This document shows, piece after piece, positions 19,783 through 26,848 of a stretch of 50,375 nucleotides of DNA. The stretch lies in the NCBI GenBank assembly GCA_029858255.1, contig JAOUFJ010000018.1, positions 1 to 50,375 of the forward strand, in the 5' to 3' direction. Below the pieces are notes generated by a model. That model saw nothing but the letters and a program-made list of their open reading frames with translations. It did not search any database and was not told the origin of the DNA. Position 1 is the first letter of the stretch; each line of letters begins with the position of its first letter. The translations under genes were made by a program, and so were the position numbers. Source of the stretch: a candidate division WOR-3 bacterium. Its GTDB lineage: Bacteria > Hydrothermota > Tepidihabitantia > SM23-42.

Positions 19783-20172
19783 ATGAATTTACCGTATGGT
19801 GAAATAAAGGGGAATATTCTGATCATGAAATTCTCGACTGCAGATTTCTCGATAGCTTCGGTGATGAATGCCATCAAGATCCATATTGATGTGATCGAGA
19901 ATATGGATGTGGTATTCTTGGGTGCGCAGACCGAGATCGTTGCAGGTCCAACGCCGGTTTTTCTACCCGTGCCCGTGGTGGCTCAATTCGAATATACGGC
20001 AAAGGGGTCGGCAAAGGATATCCTCCAGAAAGTATATAAAATTGTCTGGCAGGGCATTGTCGCCTCGTTCCCGGATGAGTCATGCTGGTCTGAGGCAAAA
20101 GAGGCATATGCTGCATTCATTGCGGCTCAGTCCGACCTTTTGAGAGCAAGGGTGGAAGCTTCAAAAGAATAG
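19783..20172 (+). CDS. Conserved-looking protein of unknown function (129 aa)
   Basis: No family recognised. The first half alternates short strands (ILIMKFSTADFSIASVM, IENMDVVFLGAQ). The middle is a Pro/Val-rich stretch (VAGPTPVFLPVPVVAQF, about 53-69), and the C terminus is helical and ends in charged residues. There is no signal peptide and no strong membrane helix. The start is fixed by AAAGGAGG before ATG 19783. It is the first gene after a good promoter and lies 46 bp before the ACHS-tail gene, so it probably belongs to the same operon and could be an accessory or regulatory part of that system. Confidence 0.7.
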   Translation: MNLPYGEIKGNILIMKFSTADFSIASVMNAIKIHIDVIENMDVVFLGAQTEIVAGPTPVFLPVPVVAQFEYTAKGSAKDILQKVYKIVWQGIVASFPDESCWSEAKEAYAAFIAAQSDLLRARVEASKE

Positions 20173-20218
20173 CAGGTACAAGAAGAGTCAATACCTCGTG
20201 TTCCGCAATTAGACGATA

Positions 20219-21730
20219 ATGTTCAACCTGTTTCTGATTGCACTGATCTCACTGACGGCTGATCTGCGTTGGGTAGAGGTCGATCTTTCACTATGGCAGG
20301 ACGGTCGGGCTGATTTCGTGTACAAGGTACGATACAACGTGCTCTCAGGCTCCATGCACGGCTTCTACCTCCAGGGCATCTCGGTCGTACCATATTTCAA
20401 CTTCGATGATTCATACGCGCTCGATGATTATGGCAGGCGCTATCCGCTCGAAATAAAGGACATGGGTGACAAATATGACGTGCTATTGGCACGAGGCGAA
20501 TCCTTTGGCCCCGGTGAGATAACCTATATCATACACTTTGGCGGGGACCTGGCGAAGAGCGACAATCTGGCAACTACACTGAGCGAATATGGTGAATTGG
20601 TAGTACTGCACTGGTCGCCGCCCCAGTGGGATGAGCCACTTGAACACTATACGGTCTACGTCTATTACCCGATAACCGTACCTGGTCAGGAGGTGGATCC
20701 TGATGACTACGGCTTCAGAACCGAAAGGTTCATGAATGAACAGTATTTGTTGTCCTATTTCGGACAGCCGTATGGAGGTGAGCATTTCTTTGCTGTGCGC
20801 ATACACAAGAACAACATAGACGCGCGCGAAAAAATGATGATCCAGCAATATGTGCCTGCCACTTATTTCAAGACCGATCGTTTTGGTCAGATCGAGATAG
20901 AGACTGAGAGAGAAAAGCAATTTTCATTTCCGTATGAATTGCTGTATATGGTTCTATACGTCATACCTTATCTTTTCTACTCTAATCGTAAGGCGCGTAA
21001 CATGAAAGGCGCCTACAGTGACGTGGCCAGTCTGCAGTGGCTAAGAAGTGACTGGGTCCCACCAAAGATCGAGGTTGCCACGTTCAGGAAATCGGGCAAG
21101 GTGGCAAAACTAGACCTGATCGAATCCGCATTTCTTCTGGACTATTCTGTTAACAAGATACTGACGATATTGTCGACTCAGTTAACCGAAAATGGGATTA
21201 TCGGCATATCATCGAGGGACCCTTTGAGAATAGAGGTGCTCAAACGACCTACAGGATTACGCTATTACGAAGCGGCCTTCCTCGACGCCGTGAAAACAGA
21301 CGGGTCAATGGATGAAAGCGGCTTAAAAGCACTGATGGGACAGGTGGTAGAGAATGTTTCGGCCAAAGCGTGGGATTGCGACCTGGATGCGACGAAATCG
21401 TACTACACAGAGAAAATCGGCGCACCATCAACCGAAGAGCCGATCGACGCTGAATATGATAAGAGGGATTATTATGACTACTTGATGGGACGCGAGTTTT
21501 CAAGACGTAGATTCTACGATCAAACCGAACAGGGATTTGTTGTGTACGGTGATCCGGTCAGGAGCTATTCGGCCTTTGTTCGATCAGATGCCTGCCACAG
21601 TGCATGTTACGTGCACACGGCTTGTCATGATGCTTGTCATTCGGCATGTCATTCGGCCTGCCATTCGGCTTGTCACTCGGCATGTCATTCGGCCTGCCAC
21701 TCGGCGTGTGTGAGCGGAGGAGCACACTAG
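20219..21730 (+). CDS. Membrane-anchored DUF2207-like protein with Cys/His (ACHS) repeat tail
   Basis: 503 aa. Layout: signal-like N terminus (1-14), a beta-rich extracytoplasmic domain (about 16-235, resembling DUF2207), one membrane segment (about 238-255), then a helical domain that should be cytoplasmic (about 260-440). The tail (458-503) consists of ACHS-type tetrapeptides: ACHS, a variant ACYVHT, ACHD, six perfect ACHS, then ACVSGGAH. It has ten Cys (459, 463, 469, 473, 477, 481, 485, 489, 493, 497) and as many His. The 12-bp DNA units vary at synonymous positions (GCA/GCC/GCT, TGT/TGC, CAT/CAC), so the peptide is what is conserved. A radical SAM/SPASM maturase is encoded two genes downstream, making the tail its likely substrate. 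The chemistry is unknown. Confidence 0.85.
   Translation: MFNLFLIALISLTADLRWVEVDLSLWQDGRADFVYKVRYNVLSGSMHGFYLQGISVVPYFNFDDSYALDDYGRRYPLEIKDMGDKYDVLLARGESFGPGEITYIIHFGGDLAKSDNLATTLSEYGELVVLHWSPPQWDEPLEHYTVYVYYPITVPGQEVDPDDYGFRTERFMNEQYLLSYFGQPYGGEHFFAVRIHKNNIDAREKMMIQQYVPATYFKTDRFGQIEIETEREKQFSFPYELLYMVLYVIPYLFYSNRKARNMKGAYSDVASLQWLRSDWVPPKIEVATFRKSGKVAKLDLIESAFLLDYSVNKILTILSTQLTENGIIGISSRDPLRIEVLKRPTGLRYYEAAFLDAVKTDGSMDESGLKALMGQVVENVSAKAWDCDLDATKSYYTEKIGAPSTEEPIDAEYDKRDYYDYLMGREFSRRRFYDQTEQGFVVYGDPVRSYSAFVRSDACHSACYVHTACHDACHSACHSACHSACHSACHSACHSACVSGGAH
21620..21715 (+). repeat. In-frame 12-bp tandem repeats encoding ACHx
   Basis: Eight consecutive 12-bp units (ACHD, six ACHS, ACVS) inside the gene's 3' end. 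Serine is TCG in all six ACHS units, while the Ala, Cys and His codons drift. Confidence 0.9.
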
Positions 21731-21798
21731 TGGACGAATATCTAAAGCTGGAAATGCCTAAACATCTAAAATCACAAATTCCTAAATACCTAGAATGA
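21730..21798 (+). CDS. Possible 22-aa coupled small ORF
   Basis: It starts at GTG 21730, which overlaps the ACHS-gene stop (TAGTG), and ends in TGA 21796-21798, which overlaps the radical SAM ATG (ATGA). The peptide reads MDEYLKLEMPKHLKSQIPKY followed by LE. Its MPKHL/IPKYL pattern recurs at the maturase N terminus (KIPKVL). It may be a translational coupler or small partner. Alternatively it may be a by-product of a simple CCTAAA-type DNA repeat in the gap, or of a frameshift that cut an ancestral longer maturase N terminus. No independent ribosome site is seen. Confidence 0.35.
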   Translation: MDEYLKLEMPKHLKSQIPKYLE

Positions 21799-23183
21799 AC
21801 AAATTCTTAAAAATGAAAATACCTAAAGTCCTAAATGGAAAGAAAGTCATCTGGGAAAAAGATGATTATGGGGTGGATGGTCTGCCTCGTAACTCTATGC
21901 AGGAGTTTGACTTGCGCTGGGTTGATGAGTTTATCCGAAAGATCAAACCATATGTTTACGTGCGTGAGATCGACCGGCTCTTGATCCTCATTCCCAATCA
22001 GGCATACGGGTTGAACGAAACGGGTGTAATGATAATGAAACATCTACTTGGTGGCCACACCACTGACGCACTTCTGCAAAAACTGGGCGATGACCCGTTC
22101 AAACGCAGAGATGTGCATCATTTTTTCTGTGATCTCAGGGCGATAGTGAGTGGTTGTTTGCGAGATAATGAACGGCGTATTGCCATTGACTATCATGAGT
22201 TCACTGGTGACATCAATAGATATCCGGTCCTTTCAGAAATCGCGGTGACCTACCGGTGCAATCTTAATTGTGAATTCTGTTATGTGGGCGATCATCCGCA
22301 GAGGGAGTTGAACACCAATGATTTGAAGAAAATCATTTTCAAAATCTACCGTGAAGCAATGATCCCGTCAGTGAGCTTCACGGGCGGTGAACCATTACTG
22401 CGTGAGGATATTGTGTCATTGGTATCATACGCCTCGCAGCTCGGAGTTTGGACGAACATCATTACCAACGGTACGCTGCTTGATAGGGATGTTGTGGTTG
22501 CGCTCAAGAAGGCTGGATTGTCGAGCGTTCAAGTCAGTATTGAGGGGTCCAATTCGGACGTACATGATTATATAACCGGCAAGAGGGGTGCCTTCGATTC
22601 TACAATTTCAGGCATCAGATTACTTAAAGAGGTCGGAATTCCGGTCCATACAAATACTACGCTATCGAAGAACAACATCGCACATGCGCTTGAGATAGTC
22701 AACCTCGCCAGGCGTCTGCGACTGAGCAGGCTGTCAATGAATCTGTTGATCCCTTGCGGCCGTGCTGCCGGTAAAAAGGAAATCTGGATGTCCTATTCGA
22801 AAATAGGTGATCATATTCTCCGGGTGAAGCGTTATGCCGAGGAACACAATATAAAATTCCTCTGGTATTCACCAGTGCCGTTGTGCATCTTCAATCCTAT
22901 TGCGCACGGTCTGGGTAATAAGGCATGTGCGGCGATAACCGGATTGCTTAGTATCGACCCGGCGGGCAATATCATCCCTTGCTCGTCGTGGCGTGAACCG
23001 GTGGGCTCGTTGCTGCGCCATAGTTTCAGTGATCTATGGCAGTCGGAGAAACTCCACTGCTACAAGCACATGGAATACGCCCCGGATGAGTGCCGTCGAT
23101 GCGCGCATTTTAATGAATGTAAGGGGGCGTGTCCTTTGTACTGGCAGGCCGTTGGGAAAGGGGAGATAATTGGGCGACCCTAA
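21795..23183 (+). CDS. PqqD-like/radical SAM/SPASM peptide maturase
   Basis: 462 aa. An N-terminal PqqD-like precursor-binding domain (about 58-125, with AYGLNETGVMIMKHLLGG) is followed by the radical SAM core with CNLNCEFC (C155, C159, C162) and FTGGEPLL (195-202). A SPASM domain for auxiliary Fe-S clusters holds C378, C396, C422 and the block C433-x2-C436-x5-C442-x3-C446. This is the architecture of PqqE/AnSME/sactipeptide enzymes that modify Cys or other side chains of ribosomal peptides. Directly upstream is the protein with the ACHS tail, its likely target. The exact start is uncertain because the first 12 codons lie in a low-complexity repeat. It overlaps the next gene by 14 nt. Confidence 0.92.
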   Translation: MNKFLKMKIPKVLNGKKVIWEKDDYGVDGLPRNSMQEFDLRWVDEFIRKIKPYVYVREIDRLLILIPNQAYGLNETGVMIMKHLLGGHTTDALLQKLGDDPFKRRDVHHFFCDLRAIVSGCLRDNERRIAIDYHEFTGDINRYPVLSEIAVTYRCNLNCEFCYVGDHPQRELNTNDLKKIIFKIYREAMIPSVSFTGGEPLLREDIVSLVSYASQLGVWTNIITNGTLLDRDVVVALKKAGLSSVQVSIEGSNSDVHDYITGKRGAFDSTISGIRLLKEVGIPVHTNTTLSKNNIAHALEIVNLARRLRLSRLSMNLLIPCGRAAGKKEIWMSYSKIGDHILRVKRYAEEHNIKFLWYSPVPLCIFNPIAHGLGNKACAAITGLLSIDPAGNIIPCSSWREPVGSLLRHSFSDLWQSEKLHCYKHMEYAPDECRRCAHFNECKGACPLYWQAVGKGEIIGRP

Positions 23184-24093
23184 AGTATATCTTATATTCG
23201 ACAAGATAAGTCCGCACCTTCGCGTCGTGGTTTCGGCAGTGCTCATTGCTGCCGGATTCCTGATACAGCTCAGCACGCATAACATCCTGGCAGGAATACC
23301 CTTCATCATCTTCTGCGCTTTGTTAAATATCGTTAAGAGTATTTCAATCAAGAAAGCGGTGCCTGAAAAAACCGAATGGCAGGAGGTCACTACGCGAAAG
23401 ATCGATGAAGTCATCGAACACTGCCGCAAGATAAAGAAATTCAGAAGTGGCAATCTTGGATGTTTGCTTGGCTTTGTTATTATCCTTGTGTTCTTCGGAG
23501 GATTCCTGTTCCCGATCCTGGAGGAAATATCAATTCCTTTCCCTCTGCTCGCGACAATAGTCAACGCGTTCGTTCTATTCATCGGGCTTGGGTTGAGCGG
23601 GCGGAAAAGTGCTTGGATGCCTCGAGCTCTGGATACTAAGGTTGATATCGTCAAAGGCATAATCGAGTCGCCTCTCGTAAAGAACGATCCGGGCATTCGA
23701 GCAGTTCCCTATCTTGAGATCGGGCACGCCCAGCAGGGGACTTTTCCACACGATACGAGGGTTCTTATCAAGTTCATAGATGCACCCGATGATTTCATTG
23801 GTGTGCAGGGGCAGATTTCGATCAACACCGTGAAATCCCGCGAGTATCCATATTTCTACGTTGTGCTGATCGCACGTCCTGATTTCGGATTGCTGGAGAA
23901 ATTCAGATCATTGAAGATCGTGCTGAACAACATGACAGTTGAAGAGAAAAAAACTACGGAAGTCGACGTGATCGTGCTCAGGCAGACCACGACAAAGACT
24001 TCCGGGTACCATACAGACCAGAAGATGCAGGAATATATACTCACCAGCGGCATTAAGGCCGCCAAGAAATTGTTGTCACCCTCCAAGATCTAG
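23170..24093 (+). CDS. Membrane protein of unknown function in the ACHS operon
   Basis: 307 aa. There are two hydrophobic hairpins (about 18-58 and 96-142) separated by a charged loop, giving about four membrane helices. A soluble beta-rich C-terminal domain (about 160-300) has conserved-looking YLEIGHAQQG and HDTRVLIKF segments. No family recognised. The start is TTG 23170, 11 nt before the maturase stop, with GGGGAG immediately upstream, so it is translationally coupled. It could be a membrane partner, exporter or user of the modified tail protein. Confidence 0.75.
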   Translation: MGDPKVYLIFDKISPHLRVVVSAVLIAAGFLIQLSTHNILAGIPFIIFCALLNIVKSISIKKAVPEKTEWQEVTTRKIDEVIEHCRKIKKFRSGNLGCLLGFVIILVFFGGFLFPILEEISIPFPLLATIVNAFVLFIGLGLSGRKSAWMPRALDTKVDIVKGIIESPLVKNDPGIRAVPYLEIGHAQQGTFPHDTRVLIKFIDAPDDFIGVQGQISINTVKSREYPYFYVVLIARPDFGLLEKFRSLKIVLNNMTVEEKKTTEVDVIVLRQTTTKTSGYHTDQKMQEYILTSGIKAAKKLLSPSKI

Positions 24094-24170: not shown

Positions 24171-25487
24171 TTAGGTTTTGTTTTTCGTGAGCAGGCGTTT
24201 GATCTTTTTATACAGGGCAATTCGTGGTTTGGGATAATACCAGGTGTAGAACAGATTGTTGTGATAGAGAGGGTCGGTGTTCTCATCAAATCCGGTTTTT
24301 TCGTATTCGGCAGTATACGGGATGGGTGAGAATTCACAGAGATGAGGATTAACCCCGAGGTCATGACATAATTTGATGGAATCGATGACTTCTTCATGAC
24401 CCTGGTCGGGCATACCGTAAAGCACATAGGTTTGTATTTGAGCCGGCGCAAAACCTGCCCTCGTCAGTATTCGGACAGAATTCATGAATTCTTCGGTGTT
24501 CACCTTGCCGCCGGTCTGTTGTTGAACAGCGGGATTGGTCGTCTCCAGGCTGAGATAAATGGTCTGGAAATTCGCCTTGGACATTAGCCCGGCGATATCC
24601 TGCGTGATGTATCTGCAGTGCAGACCGTTCGATGCGTGGAGGTTGAGGTCGTATTTCTTCTCGATGATCTTCTTGAGCAGTTCCGGAAATGATTTGTTGT
24701 ACAGCAATGCATCGTCGAAAAAGGCGATGTCATTTGTTTTTCCTGCAAAACGAGAAAGTTGCTCGAGAATTTCGGTATTCGGTGTCACAGCGAACACGGG
24801 GCACAATACTCGGGTTGCACAATATGTACATTTGAATGGGCATCCACGTGAAGTCAGAACGACCCCATAGTTGAGCTTATCATACAGCGAGAAATCCGGT
24901 ATTATTCCTAATGCGTTGTTATCGTTGTTTTGAGAGTACCCGAGTTTCCGGAGCAGATTGGGCAAATTCGCTTCTGCCATACCGGTGACTACTATGTCCG
25001 CTCCGGAATACTTCAGGGCATGGGCTTCACAGAGGGTGGCGTAAATACCACCAAGAATAATTTTCGCTCCTTTGAACTTTTCTCTGAGGGTTCTTATTGC
25101 CTCGAACGCACCAGGATACCAGTAGGTCATAGTCGAAGAGACAAAAATGATATCGGGTCTTTCTATTCGCTCGATTGTGTCCGTAAAGATACAAAGAGGC
25201 AGGCCATATCTTTTGTAAAGACGGGGAACTTTCCGGTATAATGCAGGTTTATCGACCACCTCAAAATGGTATTTGCCGCGTCCGAACCGGTCAGTTTTTG
25301 TGCCCGTGCTGTAATACGGGCTGCTGCGGTCCATGCAATCTATCAGTGTGATGTCGAAACCGGATTTCCGGAGCAATCGGGCGACGATCAGAAGGCCGAG
25401 AGGTTTGTTCCAGAAATCAAATGCCTTGAAGTCATAAACCCAAGGATTGATCAACAATGCCCTGGGTCGGCACCCTGCGTGTTTCAT
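24171..25487 (-). CDS. B12-binding-domain radical SAM protein
   Basis: From ATG 25487 the protein is 438 aa. An N-terminal cobalamin-binding-like Rossmann domain (ALLINPW... KPLGLLIVARLLRKSG... LIDCMD) precedes the radical SAM motif CPFKCTYC and a TIM barrel containing LSLETTNPA. The pattern fits the BchE/MiaB-like Elp3 superfamily of B12-dependent radical SAM enzymes. The usual DxHxxG B12 ligand motif is not evident, so cobalamin may not be bound. The substrate is unknown. A longer frame from 25568 overlaps the glycerate kinase gene; ATG 25487 sits 14 nt after that gene's stop. It converges on the ACHS operon with a gap of 77 bp. Confidence 0.8.
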   Translation of the reverse strand: MKHAGCRPRALLINPWVYDFKAFDFWNKPLGLLIVARLLRKSGFDITLIDCMDRSSPYYSTGTKTDRFGRGKYHFEVVDKPALYRKVPRLYKRYGLPLCIFTDTIERIERPDIIFVSSTMTYWYPGAFEAIRTLREKFKGAKIILGGIYATLCEAHALKYSGADIVVTGMAEANLPNLLRKLGYSQNNDNNALGIIPDFSLYDKLNYGVVLTSRGCPFKCTYCATRVLCPVFAVTPNTEILEQLSRFAGKTNDIAFFDDALLYNKSFPELLKKIIEKKYDLNLHASNGLHCRYITQDIAGLMSKANFQTIYLSLETTNPAVQQQTGGKVNTEEFMNSVRILTRAGFAPAQIQTYVLYGMPDQGHEEVIDSIKLCHDLGVNPHLCEFSPIPYTAEYEKTGFDENTDPLYHNNLFYTWYYPKPRIALYKKIKRLLTKNKT

Positions 25488-25501
25488 GTCACTAAGTTCT
25501 T

Positions 25502-26848
25502 TCAGTGCAGCAGCACGATTTGAATATCCATGACATTTGTTTTTGTCGATCCTGTTATCAAAAGGCAACCCGTTGCTTGTAAGAATGTGTGCGCATCGTA
25601 GTTGGCAAGCGATTGTTCGATATCAAGTCTCATCGCTCTGGTGCGTTCATATGTATGACTGTCAACTATGGCACCGGCCGCATCGGTGTTGCCATCGATA
25701 CCGTCGGTGCCCGCGCTGAGTACCTGAACATCTCTGAATCCTTTGATGAGAGGAACTAGAGATAGACAAAAATCCTGGTTTCGACCGCCAATATCAGTAC
25801 CCTGTACCATTGTAGTCATCTCACCTCCCGAGATGATACATATAGGTACGGTGATAGGGATTCTTTTGAAGTCTTCGATCATTGCGGCGAAAACCTTTGC
25901 CACATATCGTGTATCACCGCTGATCCGAGAAGAAAGGATAAAAGGTTCATAGCCTTTCTGTCTGGCCAGCTTTGCGATCGCCTGCAGTGCTGTGATATTG
26001 TTCCCGATGATGAAATTTCTTTTGTTCCGGAAAAGTGGGTCGCCAGGTTTTGGTGTTTCGGGTATTTCGCCGCGGCAGCCCCCTTCAAGACGGGTGAGTA
26101 TATTCGGCGGTGTAGTTTGTAAGAGCCGGTATTTGCGGAGGATATCACATGCTGCGCAGAACGTTGAAGGATCTGGTGCTGCCGGACCAGAGGCAATCGC
26201 GTGCGGTGGATCTCCAATCACATCGGAAATGATCAGTGCGGCTGTTTTTGCAGGATGGACAAATCTTGCCAGCTGTCCGCCTTTAACAAGCGACAGGTGT
26301 TTGCGTATTGTGTTAATTTCATCGATGTTCGCACCGCTTCTAAGAAGAGTTTCATTCATTTTTCTGAGATCATCTATGGTTATCCCCGCGGCGGGTAAGG
26401 TGAAGAGAGCCGAGCCGCCGCCCGACACGAGCAGAATAACAAGGTCGTCTTTTGTCGTATCTCCCATCATCTCCGTAATTCGCTGCGCTCCGTTTATGCC
26501 TCTGGTGTCTGGTATGGGATGCCCTGCTTCGGTGACATCTATCCGCTTCAGTTTCGAACCAATTCCATAGGGAGTTATGACTACACCTTTGGTAATCCGA
26601 TCCAGCAAAATTTGTTCGATGGCCTGGGCCATGGGCAGGGCTGCTTTGCCAAACCCTGCGATCAGGATGCGTTTGAATCTTGTAAGATCATAACATTCCT
26701 GGTTACGCAGATGATCTGTAATCGTGAGCAATTCTTTGGTTATGCTGATGCTCCGTCGCGTAATTTCGTACGGGTCTACAGCATCGACTCCGGCAAGAAA
26801 GAGTTCTATTATATCCGAGCGGTCTCTGGTCAATGGTCTTTCCATCAT
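25502..26848 (-). CDS. Glycerate 2-kinase (GckA/TtuD type)
   Basis: It phosphorylates D-glycerate to 2-phosphoglycerate. The 448-aa protein has the N-terminal DUF4147 domain (AGFGKAALPMAQAIE, LVSGGGSALF, KHLSLVKGGQLARF) and the C-terminal MOFRL domain (GGEMTT, GGRNQDFCLS, SAGTDGIDG-NTDAAGA). The length is normal. The neighbouring upstream gene on the same strand encodes an SHMT-like enzyme, linking serine/glycine and glycerate metabolism. No clear ribosome site precedes ATG 26848; the next ATG is one codon on. Confidence 0.95.
   Translation of the reverse strand: MMERPLTRDRSDIIELFLAGVDAVDPYEITRRSISITKELLTITDHLRNQECYDLTRFKRILIAGFGKAALPMAQAIEQILLDRITKGVVITPYGIGSKLKRIDVTEAGHPIPDTRGINGAQRITEMMGDTTKDDLVILLVSGGGSALFTLPAAGITIDDLRKMNETLLRSGANIDEINTIRKHLSLVKGGQLARFVHPAKTAALIISDVIGDPPHAIASGPAAPDPSTFCAACDILRKYRLLQTTPPNILTRLEGGCRGEIPETPKPGDPLFRNKRNFIIGNNITALQAIAKLARQKGYEPFILSSRISGDTRYVAKVFAAMIEDFKRIPITVPICIISGGEMTTMVQGTDIGGRNQDFCLSLVPLIKGFRDVQVLSAGTDGIDGNTDAAGAIVDSHTYERTRAMRLDIEQSLANYDAHTFLQATGCLLITGSTKTNVMDIQIVLLH

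Follow-up and report, generated by a model that had tools for sequence, protein, structure and literature searches.

What does a radical SAM enzyme do beside the gene of a membrane-anchored protein that ends in a repeat of cysteines and histidines? The question is raised by a 50,375-nucleotide stretch (the window) from a candidate division WOR-3 genome of 2.7 Mb. Our answer, which we consider probable, is that a four-gene cassette is present here in which the Cys/His tail of a DUF2207-like protein anchored in the membrane is modified on the cytoplasmic side by a radical SAM/SPASM enzyme bearing a RiPP recognition element (RRE). Judging from the sequences, the tail is most likely the substrate of this maturase, and the product is most likely a modified protein tail and not a free RiPP. 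The cassette spans positions 19783-24093 of the window and has the following features:

19783..20172, + strand: 'up', first gene of the cassette; 129 aa, without signal peptide, no known family
20219..21730, + strand: tail protein, 503 aa; signal-like N-terminus, DUF2207-like beta-sandwich ectodomain, one membrane helix, inner domain, Cys/His repeat tail
20933..21025, + strand: helix aa 239-269 with the membrane segment; hydropathy peak at aa 235-253, positive residues after it; predicted topology
21584..21727, + strand: repeat tail, aa 456-503, SDACHSACYVHTACHDACHSACHSACHSACHSACHSACHSACVSGGAH; 10 Cys, 10 His
21795..23183, + strand: maturase (RRE, radical SAM, SPASM), 462 aa; PF04055 9e-29, PF13186 4e-8, PqqD 0.002
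21960..22154, + strand: RRE/PqqD-like region, about aa 56-120 (PqqD profile, relatives, TfuB1 match)
22257..22280, + strand: radical SAM motif C155-x3-C159-x2-C162 (CNLNCEFC), invariant in 25/25
22884..23132, + strand: SPASM cysteines C364 to C446 (PF13186, alignment)
23170..24093, + strand: 'dn', 307-aa membrane protein; hydrophobic N-terminal half, conserved C-terminal domain (RQxTTKTSGYHT)

The tail protein and the maturase lie exactly where the initial annotation had placed them, on the same strand and with the maturase 64 nt after the tail gene, but the unit comprises four genes and not two, 'up' and 'dn' having been missed. The former ends 46 nt ahead of the tail gene, and the latter starts with TTG in a 14-nt overlap with the end of the maturase gene. 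Across phyla 'up' is 45-92% identical; its model is alpha/beta (mean pLDDT 89), and a fold search against the PDB gave only an ACT/S6-type resemblance, with none under E=0.001. For 'dn', profile searches of NCBIfam and Pfam gave no family match, and PDB sequence-profile searches with 'up', 'dn' and the tail protein gave no significant match. Just downstream of the cassette there is a B12-binding radical SAM protein (window 24171-25568, - strand), kept only by close relatives.

The tail protein had been described as DUF2207-like. The window protein is a borderline case, with 24.2 bits against the Pfam gathering cut-off of 24.4, but 12 of 27 relatives match DUF2207 (PF09972; E<=0.01, best 1.3e-7). 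In the structure model, a beta-rich ectodomain (pLDDT >90) is followed by one long helix (aa 239-269) and then by an inner helical domain; the tail itself was modelled as a low-confidence helix, which we discarded as evidence. The single membrane helix of the model, the signal-like N-terminus and the positive residues past the helix suggest that the tail is on the cytoplasmic side. A fold search places the modelled ectodomain near ribophorin I and the N-domain of M1 aminopeptidases, a likeness at the level of fold only, with query TM-scores (0.24-0.30) that are low partly because the query takes in the other domains of the protein. DUF2207 proteins likewise have a large outer N-terminus, a membrane segment and an inner C-terminus with a low-complexity tail, and in Streptococcus mutans one of them affects stress tolerance and biofilm (PMC10457818). 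Their tails are described as Gly/Ser-rich (PMC10457818), whereas the tail here is Cys/His-rich and has a dedicated maturase; according to these inner Gly/Ser-rich C-termini and the S. mutans case, the Cys tail may occupy the place of the usual DUF2207 low-complexity stretch.

Three domains had been read in the maturase. The precursor-binding domain is supported as an RRE by the family, since 13 of 25 relatives match PqqD (E<=0.05, best 2e-5) and the N-terminal profile matches the solved protein TfuB1 (6jx3; E=5e-5), which we take to be a RiPP recognition element, although the window protein alone stays under the PqqD cut-off of Pfam (18.8 against 23.4 bits). The radical SAM site is confirmed by the PF04055 match and the invariant CX3CX2C motif. 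The canonical SPASM pattern has eight Cys, as in the anaerobic sulfatase-maturating enzyme, and the full set claimed for the maturase was nearly right: seven are conserved (C364, C378, C396, C433, C436, C442 and C446; one of 22 class A rows lacks C364, and none lacks any of the other six), but the last canonical one is absent. PF13186 is above its cut-off in the window maturase and is matched by 25/25 members.

According to the initial annotation, its reading would be refuted if homologues of the tail protein were regularly found with no radical SAM gene close by. This is not what we observed, with few exceptions. A scan of 84,980 species' genomes, queried with the exact tail peptides SDACHSAC and YVHTACHD and for that reason biased to the canonical tail, yielded 34 confirmed loci in about eight phyla: WOR-3/Stahlbacteria, Hydrothermus, Fischerbacteria, Armatimonadota, Sumerlaeota, Aminicenantes/Acidobacteria, Planctomycetota together with a bin labelled Kuenenia, and Riflebacteria/Ozemobacter. 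In 32/32 loci with any downstream sequence, the tail gene is followed by the maturase or by as much of its beginning as a gap or contig end leaves; 'up' precedes the tail gene in 25/29 class A loci with at least 1.5 kb upstream, and 'dn' is downstream in 28/34, with the sequence of the remaining six interrupted by gaps or contig ends. Gene order is kept throughout these about eight phyla, and a neighbourhood comparison found no genes beyond the cassette that are common to loci across phyla.

The pair also co-occurs at the level of genomes. Among 61 relatives, 24 have both tail and maturase, none has the tail only, 36 have neither and a single one has the maturase only, at a contig edge where the sequence begins inside the maturase. 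Among 201 sampled genomes from the phylum of G148 (Armatimonadota group), with cut-offs of E 1e-60 for the maturase and E 1e-3 for the tail, 38 contain both, six the tail only, one the maturase only (G665) and 156 neither; Fisher's test gives p=2e-33, which overstates the evidence because related genomes are not independent. The six genomes with a tail and no maturase at E 1e-60 (G634, G715, G716, G751, G759 and G796) count against our best explanation; at least one of these tails is on a short contig, and weak tail matches such as that of G715 are counted against pairing by these cut-offs. In G727 tail and maturase are on different contigs, and the 9 kb on each side of the tail are free of a maturase.

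Several other matches were set aside. In two single-contig genomes (G003 and G007; L021, L040, L096 and L097) the cassette is cut at N runs and the halves are far apart, a split that we rejected as real unlinking and ascribe to scaffolding, with N runs and overlapping contig ends in G003 and an N run inside the maturase in G007. The G059 match (L094) is a minisatellite read in frame and not a gene, and the viral-contig matches to the CHS pattern (L185-L187) contain no ORF with in-frame ACHSACHS. The CACA tail was not found in the viral contigs searched, and a tail search of plasmids gave no match.

A second kind of tail allowed a comparison between enzyme and presumed target. Class B has the same overall layout, a tail reading CACACACAGCACACAGGGR or near variants, which contains no His, and its own RRE/rSAM/SPASM enzyme; three aligned class B maturases are 29-31% identical to that of the window. 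It occurs in the phylum of the window, in that of G148 and in 19/199 sampled genomes of the phylum of G150. The maturase tree separates 43 class A-type rows from 22 class B rows by a supported branch, which is long and comes from quick searches with SH-aLRT support only. The maturase clades follow tail class and not host phylum, each class being present in three phyla, and the tail-protein body, with the tail removed, splits in the same way in an equally quick tree, so the pair has co-evolved as one; co-evolution by itself is no proof of direct contact. By profile, neither 'up' nor 'dn' accompanies class B in Armatimonadota or in the window's own phylum, yet these loci keep tail and maturase.

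The class B loci (L044, L089-L093, L108-L126, L151-L152 and L157-L163) mostly adjoin an RRE/rSAM/SPASM gene, and in the window's phylum a small membrane protein of another family comes first. Some class B tails adjoin a second maturase-like protein without CX3CX2C, located between the tail and the intact radical SAM genes, which is possibly a substrate-binding partner:

L165:7739-9058: second maturase-like protein without CX3CX2C
L168:10150-11454: the same
L169:10859-12142: the same
L170:3240-4559: the same
L177:9958-11232: the same

Near-invariant linkage, co-occurrence in genomes and the class-split maturase tree strongly support in silico the claim of the initial annotation that the tail is the target of the maturase; its overall reading, which extended to thioether links, metal sites or other Cys/His modifications, is supported in part. 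Beyond the anatomy, linkage, co-occurrence and clade match observed here, the mechanism that we propose is as follows. The RRE would dock the tail protein, 5'-deoxyadenosyl radical chemistry started by the radical SAM cluster would proceed along the repeat, and the SPASM clusters would support the Cys chemistry, most likely joining Cys by thioether bonds to the backbone carbons of nearby Ala, Ser or His. Once cross-linked, the tail would remain attached to its protein as a stiff rod of Cys and His and, in a redox or metal role that we infer by analogy, could bind metal or handle electrons at the inner membrane face, whereas 'up' and 'dn' may act as chaperone, partner or anchor. Unlike the short precursor of a RiPP, which has a cleavable leader, the target is, in all complete relatives, the end of a membrane protein (503 aa). 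That neither a cleavage site nor a separate leader peptide was identified for the tail protein counts against our best explanation. Thioethers are favoured because the two tail classes share Cys as their reactive residue, and by analogy with known RiPPs, in which RRE-bearing radical SAM/SPASM enzymes make Cys thioethers and tolerate Ala in the acceptor position (PMC8188230).

The tail could also be the substrate and yet carry something other than thioethers, such as a metal site built by radical chemistry, epimerised residues, or C-C or C-N bonds that cross-link it through His. The links known to be made by SPASM enzymes are of many kinds, and in class A the His are conserved as strictly as the Cys; nevertheless, a His-based reaction would not be shared by the His-free tails of class B, and Cys is the reactive residue in both classes, so that we regard this alternative as unlikely, if the best of the others. 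Slightly less credit is due to an unmodified array for metal binding or storage, with the radical SAM enzyme acting on a small molecule or on other proteins of the cassette. Metal would bind to a run of ten Cys and nine or ten His even if none were modified, and 'up' and 'dn' are likewise conserved beside the enzyme, but the maturase clade tracks tail class, some class B loci dispense with 'up' and 'dn' and keep the tail and the maturase, the RRE suggests a peptide substrate, and a plain metal buffer would tolerate more change in length and order than the canonical tail shows.

This constancy is found in the peptide and not in the DNA. The 503-aa protein ends in SDACHSACYVHTACHDACHS...ACVSGGAH, and the count of ten Cys and ten His in an ACHS-type tail, made in the initial annotation, is exact for aa 456-503. 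In an alignment of 27 full-length sequences the tail is gap-free, with the ten Cys and nine His invariant and the copy number constant; invariant columns make up 36/48 of the tail and 25/455 elsewhere (p ~ 2e-28), and any two sequences are on average 96% identical in the tail against 41% in the rest of the protein. A repeat whose residues and copy number are fixed to this degree across about eight phyla must have an exact structure. No two of 33 tail DNAs are identical, and between genomes with an identical tail peptide codon positions 1+2 of the whole tail agree at 0.97 and the third at 0.43, in line with the earlier observation that the 12-bp units are kept in peptide and not at synonymous sites. 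Third-position identity is 0.47 between ACHS units within one gene and 0.42 for the corresponding unit between genomes, so recent repeat expansion does not explain their sameness; these sequences indicate that purifying selection acts on the tail peptide while synonymous sites are free. Neutral tandem-repeat DNA translated by accident, as the 12-bp unit might suggest, has practically no chance and was rejected, since differing DNAs encode near-identical peptides, third positions agree just 43% and copy number is unchanged among the aligned rows.

Profiles of the tail protein, run against the phyla to which G148 (Armatimonadota), G150 (an Aminicenantes locus) and G152 (Planctomycetota) belong, revealed CHS tails with fewer or more units, having 8 to 13 Cys (for example ATVCHSACHS... 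and VTVCHDACHSACHD...). Copy number is thus fixed in the canonical group and variable outside it, where length and sequence both change; this counts against our best explanation in so far as the family at large can do without one exact length. The long CHS tails with 13 Cys (L172:10345-11998; similar ORFs in L171) have as neighbours a zinc-ribbon-bearing Band-7/SPFH protein and a 191-aa protein that belongs to no known family.

That radical SAM enzymes can have Cys repeats as targets is already known. The Syntroph_Cxxx family (TIGR04117), a named radical SAM target, also has Cys at every fourth residue of its C-terminus, but its model has 98 positions, in contrast to a 503-aa membrane protein here, and it scores 14.5 bits with the window protein and 13.7 with that of L074 against a cut-off of 50; the CXXX repeat maturase and associated families (TIGR04115 and TIGR04116) are not among the best 25 of 96 families for the maturase, which is far below every curated cut-off among those 25. 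Sactipeptide and ranthipeptide maturases (AlbA, SkfB, StsB, PapB, RumMC2) share the RRE, radical SAM and SPASM parts and a Cys-rich substrate, but act on a short leader-bearing precursor and not, as presumed here, on the tail of a large membrane protein. The His-Xaa-Ser system (HxsA/B/C/D) also places a radical SAM gene next to a repeat tail that contains His and Ser; the repeating unit of the present tail is Ala-Cys-His-Ser, and the maturase reaches 92 bits with the HxsC4 model against a cut-off of 500. QhpD is similar in that radical SAM/SPASM cross-links are retained in the working quinohemoprotein amine dehydrogenase, and differs in target protein, location and sequence pattern.

No model in NCBIfam, Pfam or PADLOC names the tail/maturase pair; PADLOC (anti-phage defence) returned viperin models only, through the radical SAM core of the maturase, with no match for the other three proteins. 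In open-licence papers, where absence is weak evidence, we found nothing joining DUF2207 with radical SAM enzymes, no mention of TIGR04115-04117, and general work only on radical SAM enzymes with Cys-rich targets. As far as these tools show, the novelty lies in the target: a tail of constant sequence on a membrane protein, probably on the cytoplasmic side, which comes in two classes and is spread over several phyla. If the maturase modifies the tail, this would be a widespread protein-embedded modification with two tail classes and no curated family; the correspondence of enzyme clade to tail class would provide a direct test of radical SAM substrate choice, and the cassette a first handle on the role of DUF2207-type membrane proteins. 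More tentatively, and with the odds against it, the CHS and CACA tails could be two classes of a genetically encoded protein cofactor matured by radical SAM enzymes, that is, cross-linked Cys-rich rods at the inner face of the membrane for redox or metal chemistry, spread over several phyla and without counterpart among known RiPPs or protein-derived cofactors.

Finally, the region at 21730-21840 of the window, covering the gap between tail gene and maturase and the start of the latter, contains degenerate repeats of type CCTAAAnnnCTAAA, and the maturase N-terminus at these repeats differs strongly among relatives. Automatic start calls for the maturase will go wrong at L066-L069 and L061, where the frames extend back into the tail gene in another frame and give spurious leaders (e.g. 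LPFCLSFCL).
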